Below, one piece after another: positions 5,677 to 24,400 of a DNA stretch of 64,000 nt (positions are counted from its first letter, which is position 1; each line of letters opens with the position of its first letter). Both the position numbers and the translations under genes were made by a program. The stretch is from Opitutales bacterium (lineage in GTDB: Bacteria; Verrucomicrobiota; Verrucomicrobiia; Opitutales; Coraliomargaritaceae): the NCBI GenBank assembly GCA_018607135.1, contig JABBCA010000082.1, positions 150,075 through 214,074 on the forward strand, in the 5' to 3' direction. The notes beneath the pieces were generated by a model that was not told where the DNA came from, searched no databases, and saw nothing but the letters and a program-made list of their open reading frames with translations.

Positions 5677-7287
5677 ATGAAGATCCCACTTATAGTAATT
5701 AGTATTCTAATAATCGCCTCAGTTTCCTGGGCGAAAGTCGAGTTGCCAGCCGTCTTCTCCGACGGGGCCGTTTTACAACGTGATCAAGATCTCCCCGTGT
5801 GGGGATGGGGCAGTCCTGGAGCCAATGTATCGGTGCGCTTTGCCGACCAAACGAAGACCACCCGAGTAGATGCAGATGGCAAATGGATGGTTACCCTGTC
5901 TCCGGTCAAGGGCTCTTACGACACGCATACCATGCAGATTCAGGTGGGCCGCGACTCGCTGGAGCTCACTGATTTGCTAGTCGGTGAGGTGTGGCTCTGC
6001 ACCGGCCAGTCCAACATGCAATATACTTTCGATGCTTTGGTCGGGCGTTCCAAAGATAAAGGCTACCAGTCAATCATCGATTCTATGCAGCAATTGAAGG
6101 ATACGGTAAAAGATCCCTATTTGCGTAAGATCACGGTGCCTGCGGTTGCGTCGCTGGAGGAAGGTATGCATACTTTCGAGGGTGAGTGGATGAGCGTCGA
6201 GCCGAAAAACAATGGCAGCTTTTCCGCCACCACATACTTCTTCGCTAGGGAGCTTCGAAACTATCTCGACTGTCCCGTTGGTATGCTGACTTGCGCATGG
6301 GGTGGGCAACGCATCGATGGATTCATCCCTCCCTCCGCGTGGATGGCTAGCACCGAAAAAGCAAATTACGAAAAAGAGATTGCTACGATTAAACACCAAA
6401 TCGCAACCTATGATCCCGTAAAGGCACAGGAAACCTTGGAAAAGGAACATGCGCAATGGAAGGCCAACAATGGTCACCGCCGCAAAGAGCCTAAGCTCTA
6501 CAATCCGTCGGTGATCACACCCAATATTCGCGGTGTCATCTACAACGGAATGATTCATCCACTGGCGCCTTACGCACTCCGCGGCATGCTCTGGTATCAG
6601 GGTGAATCACATTCTCGCAGCAACCCGCAATCCTATGGCTACCTGATGGAACTGCTCATCACTGGCTTGAGAGCCGAATGGGGACAAGGCGACTTTCCGG
6701 TCTACTACTGCCAACTGGCGGGATTCATGAAACCAGAGTCTGAGCCGCTCCAAGAAACGCCGAGCATGGTCGTCATTTGCAACCAGCAGCGCCTCTCGAT
6801 GAAAATTCCCAATACTGGCATGGCGGTGCTCAATGATGTGGGTCAAGCGACAGATTATCATCCAAAAAACAAGCTGGATGTCGGCCTTCGCCTCTCGAAA
6901 TGGGCCTTGAACAAAACTTATGGCTTTGAAGATATCGTGCCCAGTGGCCCACTGTATCAATCATACCACAACAACGGTAGCTCAATCACCATAACCTTTG
7001 AGTATGCGGGCAGCGGTCTGATGACGGGCAACAAACACCTTCTCAAGCCAGTGGTGCCTTCCAACGATCCTATAAGCGGCTTTGAGATCTGCGGCGATGA
7101 CCACCAGTGGAAAGCAGCGACCGCACACATAGTAGGGCACAATCAAGTAGAAGTCGCTCACCCATCCATCCAGAAACCGGTCGCGGTGCGTTATGCATGG
7201 CAAGGCAACCCCACCAATGCGAACCTCTACAATAAAGAAGGACTCCCCACGAGCTTGTTCATCACGGATGAGTCCATGGGTAAATAA
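5677..7287 (+). CDS. Sialate-O-acetylesterase-type (SASA/SGNH) carbohydrate esterase, copy 1
   Basis: A 536-residue exported esterase. The signal peptide covers about residues 1-19 (MKIPLIVISILIIASVSWA), followed by a beta-domain with the family opening [12 protein letters not shown]. The SGNH catalytic serine lies in CTGQSNMQ (Ser112). The conserved LWYQGES block is at about 306-312, and a DYHPKNK segment further on supplies the probable His of the triad. SASA enzymes remove O-acetyl groups from sugars. Because the neighbours are sulfatases and a fucosidase, the substrate is probably an acetylated algal polysaccharide rather than sialic acid. It is a close paralogue of the gene at 8805, with the sulfatase between them. 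Confidence 0.88.
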   Translation: MKIPLIVISILIIASVSWAKVELPAVFSDGAVLQRDQDLPVWGWGSPGANVSVRFADQTKTTRVDADGKWMVTLSPVKGSYDTHTMQIQVGRDSLELTDLLVGEVWLCTGQSNMQYTFDALVGRSKDKGYQSIIDSMQQLKDTVKDPYLRKITVPAVASLEEGMHTFEGEWMSVEPKNNGSFSATTYFFARELRNYLDCPVGMLTCAWGGQRIDGFIPPSAWMASTEKANYEKEIATIKHQIATYDPVKAQETLEKEHAQWKANNGHRRKEPKLYNPSVITPNIRGVIYNGMIHPLAPYALRGMLWYQGESHSRSNPQSYGYLMELLITGLRAEWGQGDFPVYYCQLAGFMKPESEPLQETPSMVVICNQQRLSMKIPNTGMAVLNDVGQATDYHPKNKLDVGLRLSKWALNKTYGFEDIVPSGPLYQSYHNNGSSITITFEYAGSGLMTGNKHLLKPVVPSNDPISGFEICGDDHQWKAATAHIVGHNQVEVAHPSIQKPVAVRYAWQGNPTNANLYNKEGLPTSLFITDESMGK

Positions 7288-7345: not shown

Positions 7346-8812
7346 ATGAAAATTCAATCCAAGACAATTCGCACACCTTTACTATTTGGGCTAAGCCTGA
7401 TCAGCCTACTTGGAGCTTCCGCACACGCAGCGGAGCCTCAGCAGCCCAATATCATCATCATACTAAACGATGATCAGGGCTATCAGGATTTGGGCTGTTA
7501 CGGCTCACCAGACATCAAAACACCCAATGTCGATCGACTGGCGAGCGAAGGAATCCGTTTTACCGACTTTTACGTGGCCTCGAATGTCTGCTCTGCCTCA
7601 CGTGCCGCTTTACTCACTGGCTCCTACCCTTCCCGCATCGGCGTGCCAGGGGTGTTTTTCCCAAACCGTGGACGCCAAGGAATGTCTCCGGATTGTCTAA
7701 CGATTGCCGAAGTTTTAAAAACCGCAGGCTATGCTACCAAGGCTGTCGGTAAATGGCACCTCGGCGAGCAGATCGAATTTTTACCTATTAACCAGGGTTT
7801 CGATTCCTATTACGGCATCCCTTACAGCAACGATATGTTTCCCACTAAACAGATGAAGTATGCCGACGATTGCCTCTGGCGAGAAGGCTTCAGCTATGCG
7901 TCGGTTAAAGAATCATTCGAGCCTGGCAATGGAAAAATATGGCGCGGCAATCCAATGCGCTTACGTGATAAAGTGCCCCTAATGCGCGATGATACCTGTA
8001 TTGAGTTTCCAACCGATCAAACAACGATCACACGTCGTTATGCCGATGAAAGTATTGAGTTTGTCACGGAAAGCGTCGAAGCCAAACAACCCTTCTTCCT
8101 CTATTTGGCCAATTCAATGCCGCACACGCCGCTCTTTGCTTCCGAAGCATTTAAAGGTAAAAGTGAAGGCGGACTCTATGGTGATGTGATCGAGGAAATT
8201 GATTTCAATACAGGTCGTATACTCGAGCATCTGCAGCAACTGGGTATCGCAGAGAATACCATTGTGGTATTCACCTCCGACAACGGGCCATGGCTCGTAA
8301 AAGGCAAACATGGTGGGAGCGCGCTGCCACTGTTTGAAGGAAAAATGACTAGTTTTGAAGGGGGCCAACGCGTTCCCGCGATTGTCCGCTGGCCTGGCCA
8401 CATTCCAGCTGGTATTACCTGCTCAGAACTCGCGACATCAATGGATCTGCTGCCTACATTGGCTGAGGTGGCCGGTGCGAAGCTCCCCGAAGGCCATGTC
8501 ATTGACGGTAAAAACATACTAAACCTACTAACAAACGAAACTGGGGCAAAGACACCCTACGACTACTTTTTCTTAAGCCATTTAGCGGTGCGCAGCGGCG
8601 ACTGGAAATACCATGAAAAAGAAAGCTTCAAAGTCAAAGCGACCGAGCGCGATACCGGTGGCCCCACTCTCTATAATTTGCAGGACGATATCGGAGAGAG
8701 CGTGAATCTCATTCGCGAATACCCCGAAATCGCGGAACGCCTCAAAGCAGCCTTGATGGAGTTTAAGCGTAGGAAATCTGCAGCCAAAGCAACTCCTGCA
8801 CACGATGCGTAG
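7346..8812 (+). CDS. Secreted type I sulfatase (formylglycine type), copy 1
   Basis: A 488-residue exported sulfatase. The ATG at 7346 is chosen because it opens a signal peptide (about 1-28, ending AHAA); the longer reading from 7193 would overlap the preceding gene. It begins with the metal-binding IIILNDDQG (Asp42, Asp43) and carries the formylglycine signature C-S-A-S-R (Cys82-Arg86), matching C-x-A/P-S/T-R. A second metal-site segment (FTSDNGPW) and HGGSALPLFEGK lie further on. The enzyme should hydrolyse sulfate esters on a polysaccharide after Cys82 is converted to formylglycine. No formylglycine-generating or anaerobic maturase gene is in the window. It is sandwiched between two SASA esterases and its last 8 bases overlap the second one. 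Confidence 0.92.
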   Translation: MKIQSKTIRTPLLFGLSLISLLGASAHAAEPQQPNIIIILNDDQGYQDLGCYGSPDIKTPNVDRLASEGIRFTDFYVASNVCSASRAALLTGSYPSRIGVPGVFFPNRGRQGMSPDCLTIAEVLKTAGYATKAVGKWHLGEQIEFLPINQGFDSYYGIPYSNDMFPTKQMKYADDCLWREGFSYASVKESFEPGNGKIWRGNPMRLRDKVPLMRDDTCIEFPTDQTTITRRYADESIEFVTESVEAKQPFFLYLANSMPHTPLFASEAFKGKSEGGLYGDVIEEIDFNTGRILEHLQQLGIAENTIVVFTSDNGPWLVKGKHGGSALPLFEGKMTSFEGGQRVPAIVRWPGHIPAGITCSELATSMDLLPTLAEVAGAKLPEGHVIDGKNILNLLTNETGAKTPYDYFFLSHLAVRSGDWKYHEKESFKVKATERDTGGPTLYNLQDDIGESVNLIREYPEIAERLKAALMEFKRRKSAAKATPAHDA

Positions 8813-10388
8813 ATATCTATCTACAATCTACCTCCTCCTAAACTCGTCCATAGCATGGGCGGAAATCCAGCTACCCGCCGTCTTCTCAGACGGCGCAGTA
8901 TTGCAATGCGAAGCAGACCTCCCCGTATGGGGCTGGGCGGATGCCGGAAGCACCGTCACTGTCCAGTTTGCGGGCCAAACCGCCACCACAACTGTGACGG
9001 ATAACGGCACCTGGAAGCTCACACTGCAACCCGTTGCCGCATCTTATCAGAAACATACGATGCGTATTGAAGTGGATACAGAGTCTCTTCAATTGACCGA
9101 TATTCTGGTTGGAGAGGTTTGGCTCTGTTCTGGGCAATCCAATATGGAAAGCACTTTAGACTTTTTATCCACTAATACAGTGGATCCAGGCTTTGAATCG
9201 GTCGTCGCCTTCATCACAAATGAAAGAAACACCACGAATGACGAATTCTTGCGTCATATCAAAGTGCCCAGAAAAGCAAATGCTGAAAATGCTGAACTAA
9301 ACTTTAACGGCGCATGGAAGCATGCGTCCCCCCAGAACAATGGCCAGTTCTCGGCGGCGGCTTATTTCTTCGGCAAAGAGCTGCGCAAACACCTCGATCG
9401 GCCCGTGGGCTTATTAAACAGTTCATGGGGCGGTAAACGTATCGAGCCCTTTATACCCCCTTCGCAATTTGGAAATTATGATCAAATTCTTGAAGATGCG
9501 CGTGAGCGTATCCAAAATCATGATGCAGCGAAAGCAGAGCAAGACTACCAACAAGTTGTGATGACATGGCAGGAAGCTGGCAGTAAGGGTCGCCAACCTC
9601 GTAAACCCGCCGCACCTAGCCTGCGATCCCCGGGCCTCCCGACATCGCTCTACAATGGCATGATTCATCCACTCGTGCCCTACGCAATGCGTGGAGCGAT
9701 CTGGTATCAGGGCGAAGCAAATACCCGCACCATACCTGAAAAATATGGAGCACTTCTAAACACGCTAGTCAAAGGCTGGAGGCAGGAGTGGCAACAGGGC
9801 GACTTCCCCTTCTATTTCTGTCAGTTAGCAGCTTATACAGCACCACTCTCCGATCCGCTGCAAAACAAAGATCCTTGGGTTACGGTATGCCATCAGATGT
9901 TTCTCTCTACGAATATTCCCAATACTGGCATGGTTGTTTTAAATGATGTCGGACAAGTAAAAGACATACACCCCAGAAATAAAGTAGACGTCGGCCTGCG
10001 CTTATCCAAATGGGCGCTCAACAGCACCTACGGCTTAAAAGAAATCGTAGCCAGTGGCCCCCACTACCGCTCATATGAAAAGAGAGAGAATACCATCGTG
10101 CTGACCTTTGATCATTCGGGCAGCGGCTTAATGGTCGGTAAGAAAACACTCTTAGAACCGACTCAAGCCACAGAAGAACCGCTTGGTGGCTTTCAAATTT
10201 GTGGAGAAGACCGCGAATGGAAGTGGGCCTCAGCAAAGATCATTAGCAACAATGAGGTGGAAGCCTTTCACCCATCGATCCCTCAACCGCGTGCGGTGCG
10301 CTACGCATGGCAGCCAAATCCTATTCATGCCAACCTCTACAATCAGGAAGGACTGCCCACCAGTTTGTTCTCCACTGAGGCCGAGTAG
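8805..10388 (+). CDS. Sialate-O-acetylesterase-type (SASA/SGNH) carbohydrate esterase, copy 2
   Basis: A 527-residue exported esterase, paralogous over its whole length to the gene at 5677. It has a signal peptide (about 1-19), the same [14 protein letters not shown] opening, catalytic serine motif CSGQSNME (Ser112 at the identical residue number), IWYQGEA, and DIHPRNK for the histidine. Its ATG lies inside the end of the upstream sulfatase gene (8-bp overlap), implying translational coupling. The esterase-sulfatase-esterase order suggests duplication of a SASA gene around a sulfatase, with the copies perhaps acting at different acetyl positions of the same glycan. GH95 follows 42 bp downstream. 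Confidence 0.88.
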
Positions 10389-12853: not shown

Positions 12854-13099
12854 ATGTGCCTCGCACGCATTGCTGATTTTATGACGACGATCACAGGAGT
12901 GAGTTTACTGGCAGTATTCGCATGGTTCGCGACTAGAGAGTGGCAGCTAAAGTGGTTCATCGACTTATACAATATGCTTGGGGCCATACTCTTCATATTG
13001 GCCGCTCTCATCTTGGCTACTTTTCTGGAAATTGTGTATTACCGAGAAGATTATCAAAGGGCACTCAAGCACAAAGAGTCAGCGGCAGATCAGCCGTAG
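12854..13099 (+). CDS. Small two-helix membrane protein, unknown function
   Basis: An 81-residue reading frame (possibly starting at an internal ATG, 12881). It has two hydrophobic segments (about 10-27 and 41-60), separated by a short Trp-rich loop (REWQLKWFIDLY), and a charged C-terminus. No family is recognised. It is on the same strand, 36 bp after GH95 and 58 bp before the second sulfatase, so it is probably co-transcribed. It could be a small inner-membrane accessory protein. Coding potential is supported by the helix pattern and clean placement between genes, but a chance frame cannot be excluded. Confidence 0.5.
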   Translation: MCLARIADFMTTITGVSLLAVFAWFATREWQLKWFIDLYNMLGAILFILAALILATFLEIVYYREDYQRALKHKESAADQP

Positions 13100-13157
13100 G
13101 TGCTATGAGAAGGCGCTACTTTTACTCGAATTTATAAAAATCTATAACCATCACATT

Positions 13158-14636
13158 ATGCTAATAAACCGAATTCTTAAAACCGCACTCATTCTAGCCT
13201 GCACTAACATACCATGCCTTGGACTGGCAGCAGAATCACTTATAGGCGCTCGCCCTAATATCGTCTTCGTCATAACCGACGATCAGGGCATGGGGGATCT
13301 CTCCTGCATGGGCAACCAGATCCTCCAAACCCCGAACATCGATACATTCTATCAGCAGTCGACCCGCTTCACTGACTACCAAGTGAGCCCCACCTGCGCC
13401 CCCACAAGGGCGGCGATCATGAGTGGTCGACCTCCTTTCAAAGTTGGGGTCACTCATACGATCCTGCAGCGTGAGCGCATGGCGCTCGATGTTTTCACAC
13501 TACCGCAAGCTTTGAAAAGCGCGGGCTACACGACTGGGTTGTTCGGCAAATGGCATCTCGGCGACGAAGAAGCTTATTTACCGCAAAATCGCGGTTTTGA
13601 TGAAGTGCTCATGCATGGTGCTGGAGGAATCGGACAGAGGAAATACGGCGACTTTCAACCCAACGGCAGAAACCCTTATTTCGACAACGTCTTGTTACAC
13701 AACAATACGATCGTTCAGACGAAGGGCTTTTGCACCGACGTGTTTTTTCATGCAGGCTTAGCTTGGATTAAACAGCAAGAAGCAACTGGCACTCCTTACT
13801 TCGCTTACATCTCACTAAACGCTCCACATGCTCCTTTTATCGCGCCAGAAAGCTACAAACAACGCTTCCTCGACGAAGGCTATGATCAAAAGACTGCTGC
13901 CCGCTACGGGATGATTGAGAACATTGACGATAACTTCGGCCTGCTCATGCAAAAGCTCTCTGAATGGGGAGCCTTGGAAAATACCTTAATCATATTCACC
14001 ACAGACAACGGCATGGACATGCGACCGATAACAAAAAACGGCCAGCGACTGAAGCCATTTAACGCTGGAATGAAAGGTTCCAAAAACTCAGCATATGAGG
14101 GTGGAACTCATGTGCCGGCCTTTTGGTATTGGAAAGGCCACACCTCAGAGGCACTCGACATTGACGTGCTGACGACACACTTAGACCTCTATCCGACATT
14201 CGTTGAGCTCACGGGAGTGAAACTACCTAAAGAGATGCAGCCTTTGGATGGACGCTCGCTATTACCACTCCTAAACAATCCGGAATCGCCCTGGCCCGAT
14301 CGTGAGCTCTTTATACACCGTGGCCGCTGGAAAGCGGATCAACGAAGTGCTGATCAATATAAAAACTTCGCCGTCCGCAGCGAGCGCTGGCGCTTTGTCA
14401 ACGATACCGAACTCTATGATATTGACGAAGACCCAGAAGAAACAGTCAATTTGGCAACAGCGCACCCAGAGGTCGTTTCTCACTTAAGGAAAGCCTTTGA
14501 ACAATGGTGGAACTCCGCATTGCCACTTATGATCAATGAAGGTTTACCTGAAGCGCACGCACACCCCTTACAAATCCGCTACACCCAACAATTGAAAGCC
14601 CTAGGCATCCCAACCTGGGCACCCGATGAGCTTTAA
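13158..14636 (+). CDS. Secreted type I sulfatase (formylglycine type), copy 2
   Basis: A 492-residue exported sulfatase. The start at 13158 gives a signal peptide (about 1-25); the longer frame from 12978 would overlap the small membrane protein. The metal-binding opening IVFVITDDQG supplies Asp41 and Asp42. The formylglycine signature is C-A-P-T-R (Cys80-Arg84), different from the C-S-A-S-R of the first sulfatase. GKWHLGD and FTTDNGMD follow as expected. The C-terminus ends in a family-typical 'LYDIDEDPEETVNLA' block. The two sulfatases are clearly different subfamilies rather than recent duplicates, which suggests they remove sulfate from different positions of the same polysaccharide. Confidence 0.92.
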   Translation: MLINRILKTALILACTNIPCLGLAAESLIGARPNIVFVITDDQGMGDLSCMGNQILQTPNIDTFYQQSTRFTDYQVSPTCAPTRAAIMSGRPPFKVGVTHTILQRERMALDVFTLPQALKSAGYTTGLFGKWHLGDEEAYLPQNRGFDEVLMHGAGGIGQRKYGDFQPNGRNPYFDNVLLHNNTIVQTKGFCTDVFFHAGLAWIKQQEATGTPYFAYISLNAPHAPFIAPESYKQRFLDEGYDQKTAARYGMIENIDDNFGLLMQKLSEWGALENTLIIFTTDNGMDMRPITKNGQRLKPFNAGMKGSKNSAYEGGTHVPAFWYWKGHTSEALDIDVLTTHLDLYPTFVELTGVKLPKEMQPLDGRSLLPLLNNPESPWPDRELFIHRGRWKADQRSADQYKNFAVRSERWRFVNDTELYDIDEDPEETVNLATAHPEVVSHLRKAFEQWWNSALPLMINEGLPEAHAHPLQIRYTQQLKALGIPTWAPDEL

Positions 14637-14690: not shown

Positions 14691-15926
14691 ATGAATAATA
14701 AACAAGGATATCTCCAGAAATCGACCATGGATGCGTGGCTATTACTCTATATAGGCATGGGGCTATACATGGTCAGTCAAGTATTGTTCACACGCAGTTC
14801 TATTTTGGCAGGCACCGCAGTAGGACAGATTCTATGCTTACTACTGCCATCACTCATTTTTGTAAAATGGAAGACTGGATCAGTTTATAAAGCACTACGC
14901 ATACGGCCAGTATCTGCTGGCATCATTTTGCGAGTAGTCATTCTGGCTGTCACATTCATGGGATTCGCAGAGCTCTTGCAGATGGTGACTCAGCCTCTCA
15001 TTGAACGATACTTCCCCGACCAGCTCGCCGCAATCGAAGCGATAATGAAAATGCTTACGCCGACATCCGCGACTGGTTTGTTCGGTAACCTGCTAGTCGT
15101 AGGTCTAATCGCACCGATATGTGAAGAGGTCTTTTTTCGTGGCGCATTTCAAGGCACACTCGAAAAACGGGGCCCGACGAGAGCAATCCTAATCAGTGCT
15201 CTGGTTTTCGCTCTGATACATTTAAACCCCTACAGCGTCTTCGGCATTTTTGTCATAGGCATTGGCTTGGGATACCTCACTTGGCGAACCCAATCCCTAT
15301 GGCCCGCAATACTGTGGCATGTTATCAACAACTCACTGGTCACAGTGCTGCTTTATTTCAAGGGTGACTCGTATACGATGCCATTATGGCTCAATGCAAT
15401 ACTGGCTGTGCTATTCGTCATAGCAGCTTGGGAATTCACCCGCCACACCCGCCTAGGATCTAAGCGTGAGGCAACTCCCTTGGTGAATGCTCCCAAGCTA
15501 CTGAGCAGAAAGTTTAGCCATCTGCTCACCGCATCGGGTGTCATGCTGACCCTGGCTATCTGCGCGGGACTCTTCTGTTTCGGCCTAGCAAGCTTAGGCA
15601 GTAATTTTTTAGAACCCAAATATTCATTGGGCGACATCGCAGTTTACCTACGCGGTCCAGCATTCAATCCCGAAGAGCTTCAGGTCGGTGATGTTGTGGT
15701 CTATCATTTAAACGAAGGGAATTTGAGATACTCTCGTATTCTAGCGATTGATAGTGACCAGATAACAGTCATAGGTCGATTCAACGCAAAAGGTGATCGA
15801 ATCAACGAAGTCATCGATCAAAAACAACTTGCTGGGAAGTTCATCTGGTCCTTCGATCCCGGCGAAGCCATCAAGCAGCTTACGGAAACCAACAGACCGC
15901 CGGCTCCTACCAGCAAAAGCAATTAG
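14691..15926 (+). CDS. CPBP-type intramembrane protease fused to degenerate S26-like domain
   Basis: A 411-residue polytopic membrane protein. Residues 20-245 form a CPBP (CAAX/Abi) intramembrane metalloprotease core, with EEVFFR (Glu145, Glu146, Arg150), His177 in ALIHLNP and His210/Asn214 in LWHVINNS. After another hydrophobic helix (280-302) comes a soluble region (305-390) that looks by eye like a signal-peptidase I / SEC11 (S26) beta domain: LEPKYSLGDIAVYL, then VGDVVVYHL, then RILAIDSDQITVIGR, ending LAGKFIWSF. In S26 enzymes the segment before EP carries the catalytic Ser and the later position a His or Lys; here they read Phe-Leu-Glu-Pro and Tyr-Ser-Arg, so the domain is probably inactive. 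The role, perhaps maturation or tethering of exported enzymes, is inferred. Confidence 0.75.
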   Translation: MNNKQGYLQKSTMDAWLLLYIGMGLYMVSQVLFTRSSILAGTAVGQILCLLLPSLIFVKWKTGSVYKALRIRPVSAGIILRVVILAVTFMGFAELLQMVTQPLIERYFPDQLAAIEAIMKMLTPTSATGLFGNLLVVGLIAPICEEVFFRGAFQGTLEKRGPTRAILISALVFALIHLNPYSVFGIFVIGIGLGYLTWRTQSLWPAILWHVINNSLVTVLLYFKGDSYTMPLWLNAILAVLFVIAAWEFTRHTRLGSKREATPLVNAPKLLSRKFSHLLTASGVMLTLAICAGLFCFGLASLGSNFLEPKYSLGDIAVYLRGPAFNPEELQVGDVVVYHLNEGNLRYSRILAIDSDQITVIGRFNAKGDRINEVIDQKQLAGKFIWSFDPGEAIKQLTETNRPPAPTSKSN

Positions 15927-15934
15927 CCTTGGTT

Positions 15935-17509
15935 ATGAAGCGATCCACCTATCTATGGCGCCTATCCAGGGGAATACTGTTTCTCACTGTATTGATTACC
16001 GCGAACAGAACCATCGCGCAAACAGACTTCATTCCAGTCGAACAAGCGGTCTATAAAATACAACAAGAGCAAAAGACACTCATCTACAAGATGGGCCCAA
16101 TCGCATTAGAGCTAGACAGCGCCTTAGCGTCTTTGAGTGGGAGCGCGAAAGTCGACCACTTTTATAAAAATCTCGATCTCTATGCGAGCCAAGACTTGAA
16201 ATTCAGTCAGCTGTTAGACGCACACCGGTTACTTGAAAAACAGGTTCAAGAACTGGAAGCTCAATCCAACACCGCCTTTGAAAACAACTCTGACAGCGAA
16301 GCCATGTTTCAATTACCAGATGCCCGCAAGCTAGGCATACCGAAGCTGCCGGAATCCATCCTGAATAAGGATTGGTCGTGGGACAAAATTCACCGCTACA
16401 TAGTCATACGAAAAAGAAGGACAGCATTCACTGAAGATGAGCTCAGGACCATTGCCAGCTTTGATATGATACAGATGGCCTCAGATCAGGGCTCGCTGGA
16501 TTTAGCCAAAGAACTAAAGGCGATCAACCCCAACATGATTTGCATCGGCTATCGAAATGTAATCATTTGGCACGAGACCTTTGATACGGATCTATTCAGA
16601 AACAACCCAAACTGGTTTCTTAAAAACTTCAAAACGGGTGCCTACGAGACCCACGGTTCTACTGGGCAAAAGGCACAGAAGCCACTTTTTGATCTACGCG
16701 TGCCCGCAATGAGAGATTGGTGGATTAAGGATGTTGCCTCACAATGCGACCAGGGGGTGCTCGATGGCATCCTCATCGACGCCTTTGCTAAAGTATTGAC
16801 GGGCTGGGGGCCGAAGCGCCGCTCCATAGAAACCGACCCTCAGGCAACTAAAGAATACAACCGGATTTTCACAGATGAACTTCTACTCAGAAATATCCGC
16901 GAAAATGGTCATAAAGGATTAATCATCGGCAATACGCTCCGCTCTGGCTATCCAGACGCCTTGAAGAGTTTTGTCGATGTCTACTTGCATGGCTCTTACA
17001 TGGAGTGGATCGAGGGCAATCAAGAACACTATGAAGAAGGCCTCAGCAGCTTGCTCGATGCGCTCATACAGATCGGCAAAGATCCCGGCGATAAAGTCCT
17101 CTGTTTTCAATTTGGTGCACACTATCCCCCACCACCTAAAGTTAAGGTCGAGAATGCACAGAACCACATCCCAGAGTCGACGATCATGCCCGAAATGGGT
17201 GAGCATTACGACGCGAGGAACAAGACACACGAGGACATCGTTAAAGAAATGCGCGAAGCATTTCCCTACAAACTCGCGATCTTTCTGATTGGTGCCAATA
17301 AGTATTCTTACATGGGATACGCTTCCACCGTAGTGTCCAACGATGGTCTCGAACGCTGGGCTCCTCAATACCCCGAACATAACAAAAAGATTGGTCGACC
17401 CTTGGGTCACGCGACCAAGAAAGGAAAATACTACTACGAGCGCGAATTTGAACATGTGTCCGTAAAGCTAAACGTAGAAACACGCGAAGCGGTGCTCACT
17501 TGGAAATAA
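15935..17509 (+). CDS. Exported putative TIM-barrel glycoside hydrolase-like protein
   Basis: A 524-residue exported protein. The ATG at 15935 is preferred over a TTG two codons earlier; a signal peptide (about 1-28, ending TIAQ) follows. Residues 35-120 are helical with coiled-coil character. From about 150 onward the pattern resembles putative glycosyl-hydrolase TIM barrels of the 'DUF/GHL' type: IHRYIVIRKRR, FDMIQMASDQGS, PLFDLRVPAMRDWWIKDV, then VLDGILIDAF with a candidate acid at Asp282, and YLHGSYMEWIEG with another acidic pair. No firm CAZy family can be assigned. Position between a membrane protease and a propeller glycosidase on the same strand supports a role in polysaccharide breakdown. 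The catalytic function is inferred. Confidence 0.6.
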   Translation: MKRSTYLWRLSRGILFLTVLITANRTIAQTDFIPVEQAVYKIQQEQKTLIYKMGPIALELDSALASLSGSAKVDHFYKNLDLYASQDLKFSQLLDAHRLLEKQVQELEAQSNTAFENNSDSEAMFQLPDARKLGIPKLPESILNKDWSWDKIHRYIVIRKRRTAFTEDELRTIASFDMIQMASDQGSLDLAKELKAINPNMICIGYRNVIIWHETFDTDLFRNNPNWFLKNFKTGAYETHGSTGQKAQKPLFDLRVPAMRDWWIKDVASQCDQGVLDGILIDAFAKVLTGWGPKRRSIETDPQATKEYNRIFTDELLLRNIRENGHKGLIIGNTLRSGYPDALKSFVDVYLHGSYMEWIEGNQEHYEEGLSSLLDALIQIGKDPGDKVLCFQFGAHYPPPPKVKVENAQNHIPESTIMPEMGEHYDARNKTHEDIVKEMREAFPYKLAIFLIGANKYSYMGYASTVVSNDGLERWAPQYPEHNKKIGRPLGHATKKGKYYYEREFEHVSVKLNVETREAVLTWK

Positions 17510-23375: not shown

Positions 23376-23909
23376 ATGAACATGAGCTCGCCAAAAATAA
23401 GCCAATCTGAGTTTGAATCTGAAGATCCATTCTGGATTCAGCATGAGAATGACTTACAGAATTATATTGGCTACAAATTACAAGGTGTTGATCCCACGGA
23501 TATTCAAGACATCTTCCAGGAAGTCACGATCGCAGCGGCAGCTTTTGCCCGTAAGAATAAGCGCCCCGAAAAGCCGGAGAAATGGCTACGAGGAGTCGCT
23601 CGTCATAAAATACAGGACTACTGGCGAAAAGAAGCAAAGCATCCTAGTAAGGTCGCCCTGTTTGAAGGAATCGAATGTGGCGATCCGTCACCCTACGAAT
23701 GGGTTCTATCTGTAGAGAAACGTTCACAAATCAACCAAGCAGTTGAAAAGCTATCCAATGAAGAACGCATACTGCTAGAGAAAAAATACATTACTGGTGA
23801 TTCGTGTGCAGCCATTTCCCGCGCCTCGGGGAAAAGCATCAAAGCAATCGAATATCAACTGTCAAAAGCGAGAAATTCCTTAAGAGCACTATTAATTAAG
23901 ACACTATGA
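23376..23909 (+). CDS. ECF-type RNA polymerase sigma factor
   Basis: A 177-residue protein of ECF size (start at 23376; 23382 is also possible). Region 2 is visible as LQNYIGYKL, DIQDIFQEVTIAAAAFAR and KWLRGVARHKIQDYWRK (about 28-90). Region 4 appears as AVEKLSNEERILLEKKYITG, followed by CAAISRASGKSIKAIEYQL, KARNSLR (about 128-170), a helix-turn-helix for -35 recognition. It would redirect RNA polymerase to a small regulon, often including its own promoter. The stop overlaps the next ATG by 4 bp (ATGA), the standard arrangement with a cognate anti-sigma factor. Confidence 0.9.
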   Translation: MNMSSPKISQSEFESEDPFWIQHENDLQNYIGYKLQGVDPTDIQDIFQEVTIAAAAFARKNKRPEKPEKWLRGVARHKIQDYWRKEAKHPSKVALFEGIECGDPSPYEWVLSVEKRSQINQAVEKLSNEERILLEKKYITGDSCAAISRASGKSIKAIEYQLSKARNSLRALLIKTL

Positions 23910-24400
23910 ACAATGACTTATTAAACAATATCCAAGCAGTGGTCGATGGAAACCTCTCAGATCCGGAACGACATGAATTATTGCAAGAACTCGAAAGAGA
24001 ACCGCGTGCCTACCGTCAGCTTGCTCTAGGTTTTATCGAAGAACAAATCATTCGAGACAGTTTTAGAGCAAAGCAACCCGCCCAAAAAAGCAGTGTTCAC
24101 CTAGCTACCATCGCTAAAATTGCTGCGCTATTAGCCATCGGATTCTTTAGCGCTAAACTGCGACTCCCCGTCAATGATTTGCAGCTAGTTAAAGCCAATA
24201 ATGAAACGATTCATGTTCATGCTAAAGAAAACCACATTCACGAGGATGCGCAACTGGATACGATTCAGACCGTCAAAGCAGCCATGAAGCAGCGAGGCTT
24301 TGACCCCATACTCACCACCGCGTATCTACAAGCAGATACTAAAGATGGACGCAGCGTCGTCATCCCTGTAAGGCAACTTGCAACTCGCTCTAAGTATTAG
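23906..24400 (+). CDS. Probable membrane-anchored anti-sigma factor
   Basis: A 164-residue protein overlapping the sigma gene by 4 bp. The N-terminus (LNNIQAVVDGNLSDPERHEL and the following LLQELEREPRAYR) resembles the cytoplasmic sigma-binding region of anti-sigma factors. A single hydrophobic helix follows (about 68-84, TIAKIAALLAIGFFSAK), then about 80 residues that would be periplasmic and include a His-rich patch (HVHAKENHIHED). The zinc-binding HxxxCxxC motif is absent, so it is not a ZAS-type anti-sigma. Function is inferred from position and topology. The periplasmic part could sense the envelope or the exported product of the next gene. Confidence 0.7.
   Translation: MNNDLLNNIQAVVDGNLSDPERHELLQELEREPRAYRQLALGFIEEQIIRDSFRAKQPAQKSSVHLATIAKIAALLAIGFFSAKLRLPVNDLQLVKANNETIHVHAKENHIHEDAQLDTIQTVKAAMKQRGFDPILTTAYLQADTKDGRSVVIPVRQLATRSKY

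Follow-up and report, generated by a model that had tools for sequence, protein, structure and literature searches.

The gene at positions 14,691 to 15,926 of the window (the whole 64,000-nucleotide stretch of an Opitutales genome analysed here) encodes a predicted CPBP intramembrane protease that continues, by way of an extra membrane helix, into a domain resembling the signal peptidases of the SEC11/S26 type but deprived of their catalytic serine and histidine. Both this architecture and the loss of those residues draw support from profile evidence and from an independent homologue in a second genome, referred to as G278. The features of the gene and its immediate neighbors are as follows.

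14691..15926, + strand: whole gene, 411 amino acids; CPBP intramembrane protease, extra transmembrane helix and degenerate SEC11/S26-like domain
14721..15356, + strand: CPBP region (residues 11-222), scoring highest in NCBIfam against the CPBP half of NF041647 (131.7 bits)
15123..15140, + strand: EExxxR motif (E145, E146, R150), invariant in 22 of 22 aligned proteins
15219..15221, + strand: H177, the CPBP histidine, invariant in 22 of 22
15318..15332, + strand: HxxxN motif (H210, N214), invariant in 22 of 22
15441..15512, + strand: basic linker, residues 251-274, predicted to be cytoplasmic by the positive-inside rule
15510..15590, + strand: putative extra membrane helix, about residues 274-300; a hydropathy peak, and a helix in both structure models, at low confidence
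15591..15878, + strand: degenerate S26B/SEC11-like domain, residues 301-396, predicted to be periplasmic (NCBIfam, hhalign, hmmsearch)
15606..15608, + strand: F306, at the position of the catalytic serine in the joint alignment (H in G278); faces an Asp of SipA in the phmmer alignment
15732..15734, + strand: S348, at the position of the catalytic His/Lys in the joint alignment (S in G278); faces a Gly of SipA in the phmmer alignment
15777..15779, + strand: R363, where SEC11 has GDNN (R in G278; stand-alone relatives have V or I)
12978..14636, + strand: sulfatase reading frame, upstream, ending 54 bp before the fusion gene
15935..17509, + strand: hypothetical glycosidase of GHL15 type, downstream, with an in-frame ATG 8 bp past the stop codon of the fusion gene

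The reading frame of the fusion gene is uninterrupted over its 411 amino acids, from 14691 to 15926, just as an earlier reading of the sequence by itself (the sequence-only reading) had placed it. The gene and the GHL15-type gene that follows it likely belong to the same operon. The run of genes on the same strand around them also includes an AXE1-like esterase, two SASA-type esterases, two sulfatases, a GH95 enzyme and a protein with a sub-threshold match to GH43. The host genome amounts to 3.5 Mb in 106 contigs. An origin of the gene in foreign DNA, as judged from base composition, was considered and rejected (GC 0.477 in the gene, as compared to 0.493 in the window). Two further observations concern the same run. 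The two SASA-type esterase genes (5677-7287 and 8805-10388) are similar in sequence, flank a sulfatase gene and are likely paralogues, and between the GH95 and sulfatase genes lies a small reading frame (12854-13099) for a predicted membrane protein of 81 amino acids, with no Pfam match above cut-off. The small frame overlaps the start of the frame at 12978-14636, whose start is probably over-long.

The N-terminal half had been read as carrying a complete CPBP site, and the evidence bears this out. The Rce1-like family of Pfam (PF02517) matches residues 131-215 with an E-value of 7.1e-25 (87.6 bits, against a gathering score of 22.4), and the motifs listed above are invariant throughout an alignment made up of the window protein and 21 relatives from 20 loci. 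The relatives were retrieved by peptide patterns that included PICEEVFF, so that the invariance of E145 and E146 is partly built in; the invariance of H177, H210 and N214 is not built in by that pattern. The CPBP glutamic-protease motif set is complete, and proteolytic activity is predicted. The top NCBIfam model for both fused proteins is NF041647 (ABC_perm_CPBP), with 131.7 bits for the window protein and 136.9 bits for that of G278. The former does not thereby belong to the NF041647 family, as its score lies under the cut-off of 435 bits and only profile positions 422-635 are matched. Eight other CPBP proteins were compared to the same model: the seven that have no permease half scored between 51 and 110 bits, and the one that carries an ABC permease half (L039) scored 593 bits. 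Nor were the cut-offs of the myxosortase-type NCBIfam models reached (47.7 bits against 75 for MrtJ, 51.6 against 130 for MrtS). The hydropathy pattern of the window protein agrees with the placement of motifs described for the myxosortase MrtX, in which EExxxR falls in TM4 and HxxxN in TM7 (PMC11980579).

Hydropathy and the structure model together predict nine membrane helices, the first eight of which carry the CPBP motif set. The distribution of charges suggests a cytoplasmic location for the N-terminus and the basic linker, in which case the C-terminal domain would be held in the periplasm on one further helix. The structure models have little to say about the fold of that domain. AlphaFold2 gave a mean pLDDT of 52 for the C-terminal part alone and 59 for the whole protein, in which the C-terminal part was low; the model of the whole protein, made with the 21 CPBP relatives, had low confidence outside the CPBP core. 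Foldseek found no match at E ≤ 0.001, either with the model of the C-terminal part or with the full model. The best row for the full model was the SagB-SpdC complex (E 0.39, not significant), and a designed SH3-like barrel was also amongst the non-significant rows.

The likeness of the C-terminal half to S26/SEC11, noticed by the sequence-only reading from a few short strings, was put to profile searches, and these lend it support. Pfam gave no match for this half of the protein. NCBIfam gave three, all of them signal-peptidase models scoring under their curated cut-offs: with the whole protein sigpep_I_arch (E 1.8e-4), SipW (8.7e-4) and sigpep_I_bact (1.4e-3), and with the C-terminal fragment sigpep_I_arch (TIGR02228; E 4e-5, 23.5 bits against a cut-off of 51.85), SipW (1.1e-3) and sigpep_I_bact (1.5e-4). 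The G278 homologue by itself matched no signal-peptidase model of NCBIfam. Amongst solved structures, phmmer with the window protein returned a single sequence at E ≤ 10, the SipA protein of Streptococcus pyogenes, and that weakly (E 0.36), and a profile of the two fused C-termini found nothing. When two stand-alone SEC11-like proteins were added to this profile, giving four sequences in all, the first three of six rows in an hmmsearch of solved structures were SEC11A (0.0018), SEC11A (0.0038) and SEC11C (0.0052), followed by signal peptidase I at 0.12 and by a designed SH3-like barrel at 1.2. A control profile of three stand-alone proteins, made without the fused ones, reached SEC11A only at E 0.83, which indicates that the fused sequences contribute to the SEC11 signal. 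A single stand-alone relative used alone gave four rows of solved structures, with no signal peptidase amongst them.

Alignment of profiles by hhalign points the same way. The profile of the two fused C-termini aligned to that of ten stand-alone SEC11-like relatives with a score of 40.8 (probability 86.9; none of 200 column shuffles exceeded 24.9), and to a set of two stand-alone sequences with a score of 41.5 (maximum 21.3, again in 200 shuffles). The 47 other reading frames of the window scored at most 21.0 against the two-sequence set and 24.3 against the fused profile. One of the two stand-alone types is responsible for the signal: the type represented by L077 taken alone gave 46.9, and the type represented by L078 gave 18.1, at the level of the controls. 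Single fused sequences set against L077 scored 28.4 (window) and 33.0 (G278). These matches span the middle strands only, 54-55 columns, and hhalign run with -mact 0 does not position the serine box; its position comes from MAFFT and from the weak phmmer alignment to SipA (E 0.36). Taken together, the profile evidence suggests that residues 301-396 form a diverged domain of the SEC11/S26B type.

Catalysis by SEC11A depends on a triad of Ser, His and Asp (PMC13385932). In the joint alignment, the serine and the histidine are absent from both fused proteins, which upholds the claim that the catalytic residues are missing from the window protein and extends it to the second genome. The column of the serine contains F306 in the window protein and H in that of G278, and the column of the histidine contains S in both; the corresponding entries are S and H in ten of ten distinct stand-alone proteins from five genomes of the window's family (G009, G011, G012, G019 and G021), which were retrieved with a signal-peptidase model, a procedure that favors proteins retaining the active site. 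At the position of the Asp, the fused proteins have R and the stand-alone proteins V or I. That position is weak evidence of decay, because relatives that keep Ser and His also lack the Asp.

The stand-alone proteins occur as a divergent pair of small SEC11-like proteins, seen in G009 (L055:548-1758) and likewise in the other four genomes (L077-L087 minus L082). One member of the pair has a lipoprotein-like start, Ser and His are kept in both members, Asp in neither, and their matches to sigpep_I_arch fall under the cut-off. The signal-peptidase model used to retrieve them has a single match in the genome of the window, namely the window protein.

The only other fused protein found, that of G278, has 420 amino acids and is 45% identical overall to the window protein. 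Identity is 51% in residues 11-222 (109 of 212 aligned) and 42% in residues 275-396 (50 of 120). Conservation of both halves between two distant genomes makes the dead domain look as if it has been kept by selection, to the extent that two sequences permit, and the presence of the same fusion in a second genome led me to reject a frameshift or an error of assembly as its source.

The fusion is rare. It was found in 2 of 355 genomes of the class. The sets of genomes searched with the C-terminal query share members, and for the most part they sample larger groups; with this understood, matches were obtained in 2 of 387 genomes of the phylum (the window genome and G278), 3 of 355 of the class (the same two, and G009 with a stand-alone protein), 2 of 177 of the order (the window genome, and G009 again with its stand-alone protein) and 1 of 195 of the family of G278. 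None was found in 392 genomes from the phylum of G726 (locus L051, Planctomycetaceae) or in 287 from the phylum of G708 (L032, Blattabacterium), two sets that held no genome known to match, nor in the 19 genomes of the CPBP relatives. Viral contigs contained no relative of the C-terminal part, nor did they with the stand-alone proteins as query. Fifteen plasmid records matched, all inside query residues 9-227 and so without the C-terminal domain. In the window's family, 41 of 43 genomes have some match, and among the matches listed none but the window protein passes residue 271. In the genus of G278 the figure is 67 of 73, with a full-length match in G278 only and the other listed matches stopping by residue 266. 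The sequence-only reading judged two unrelated peptidase folds in one polypeptide to be unusual, and this particular pairing is indeed rare; fusion as such is less so, since CPBP proteins joined to a PDZ domain, an ABC permease or an exosortase E exist.

The genes next to the fusion gene differ between the two genomes. One side of the G278 copy is the end of a contig. On the other, 16 kb with nine reading frames were compared to Pfam: a membrane glycosyltransferase of PMT type, divergent to the fusion gene, an AcrB-type transporter, an outer membrane efflux protein, a DUF2851 protein, a protein of metallo-beta-lactamase fold, an SMC/RecN-like protein, an FtsX-like permease, and two frames with no match. 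Neither a glycosidase nor a sulfatase, a sigma factor or any polysaccharide-degradation gene is present amongst the nine. The proposal that the dead domain serves the polysaccharide enzymes of its locus thus lacks support beyond the window genome.

What might such a protein do? I tentatively propose, at somewhat less than even confidence, a putative intramembrane protease in which the pseudo-signal-peptidase domain, on the periplasmic side, serves to dock the substrate. The dead domain, if its relation to SEC11 and SipA is a guide, would retain the peptide groove of a signal peptidase. A peptide of an exported protein, extended and close to the membrane, would bind in the groove, and the transmembrane segment next to it would in this way be offered to the active site of the CPBP core and cut there. 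The idea is modelled on SipA, a proposed binder of a surface component, and on the PDZ domains of other proteases. PDZ domains play such a substrate-binding part in other proteases, and one is found at the C-terminus of a CPBP protease of Planctomycetota (L047:3517-4584; Pfam PDZ_2, E 1.3e-9), which shows that CPBP proteins can carry a peptide-binding module at this end. Binding of peptides by the dead domain is plausible by analogy with SipA. The fuller version, in which a pseudo-signal-peptidase has been recruited as a docking arm so that recognition of a signal or sorting peptide, outside the membrane, and cutting of its transmembrane segment, inside it, are both done by one polypeptide, is possible but rather doubtful. 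The different neighborhood in G278 and a fold that the models leave unconfirmed may both be counted against docking.

A rival reading is a protein with no tie to its neighbors: an orphan CPBP protein, engaged in upkeep of the envelope or in self-protection of the Abi or bacteriocin-immunity type, with the dead domain as a stabilizing or partner-binding decoration and the position in the sulfatase/fucosidase operon an accident. The patchy distribution of the fusion (2 of 355 genomes of the class) agrees with this, as does the change of neighborhood in G278, and the best Foldseek row, at a non-significant E of 0.39, was SagB-SpdC. SpdC is a membrane protein with the CPBP fold that is not known to act as a protease. 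The window protein, however, keeps the full set of CPBP residues, and its C-terminal domain is conserved nearly as well as its protease half (42% as compared to 51%). I consider this explanation fairly unlikely.

A regulatory role is distinctly unlikely. Here cleavage by the CPBP core of an anti-sigma factor bound to the membrane, which the dead domain senses or holds, would turn on the polysaccharide genes. A gene for a sigma factor of ECF type (23376-23909; Pfam Sigma70_r2, E 1.3e-7) does lie some 7.5 kb downstream of the fusion gene, overlapping by 4 bp a frame for a protein of 164 amino acids (23906-24400) with a central hydrophobic stretch, possibly an anti-sigma factor; both lie near the polysaccharide genes. 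RsiV is cut at site 1 by signal peptidase. The same is described for the anti-sigma factor RsiP (PMC8844934). The pair in the window is not adjacent to the fusion gene, though, Pfam finds nothing at E ≤ 0.01 for the 164-amino-acid protein, and no sigma factor is encoded by the nine reading frames in the 16 kb next to the G278 copy.

There is a slight chance that the C-terminal domain is some other small beta domain, resembling SEC11/S26 by accident: the scores against signal-peptidase families are all under curated cut-offs, with none at all for the G278 protein, the models and Foldseek are uninformative, and the designed SH3-like barrel turns up both in hmmsearch (E 1.2) and as a non-significant Foldseek row. 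Against this, several profile comparisons concur, and they passed their controls. That the domain is still an active peptidase using other residues, for which R346 and R363, common to both fused proteins, might be considered, is very improbable and was rejected, as the residue at the serine column (F in one, H in the other) gives no conserved nucleophile, the shared S348 lies at the position of the base, and the residues that replace the catalytic ones in SipA are described as playing no part in activity (PMC4049620).

If the docking proposal is right, a soluble peptide-binding fold would be seen to direct an intramembrane protease to its target, and SipA and the other known pseudo-signal-peptidases would gain a further example. 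The choice of substrates by prokaryotic CPBP proteases is poorly known, and these members of the family have been called largely unexplored (PMC11980579). Titles and abstract openings in the literature, a scope largely outside subscription journals, yielded no description of a fusion of CPBP protease and signal peptidase, and a search of like scope yielded no paper on exosortase E with CAAX or VPEID-CTERM.

Amongst known systems, the window protein is most evidently one of the CPBP/Rce1-like proteases (PF02517; NF041647), with which it shares EExxxR, H and HxxxN and a core at residues 131-215. In contrast to NF041647 proteins, it has no ABC permease half and adds a C-terminal helix and a SEC11-like domain. 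It is like the SEC11/S26B signal peptidases (TIGR02228, SipW; PDB 7p2p, 7p2q) in having one helix followed by a pattern that aligns to the S26 core as far as the late G382, and differs from them in having F, S and R at the positions of the Ser-His-Asp triad (PMC13385932) and in being fused to another protease. SipA (PDB 4n31), described as a catalytically dead relative of signal peptidase that is a pilus factor of Gram-positive bacteria and is proposed to bind a surface component (PMC4049620), is likewise an S26 relative without the catalytic residues (phmmer E 0.36), but it is not fused to an intramembrane protease. MrtX, a CPBP sorting protease, shares the core with EExxxR and HxxxN, and the available text on it mentions no signal-peptidase-like domain (PMC11980579). 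Similar in plan are the exosortase E/protease proteins (NCBIfam TIGR04162), where a CPBP core is joined to a second domain that is a sorting enzyme by the name of the model, and the CPBP-PDZ protein of L047, where the core is joined to a peptide binder. What is joined to the core in these is an exosortase or a PDZ domain; in the window protein it appears to be a pseudo-signal-peptidase.
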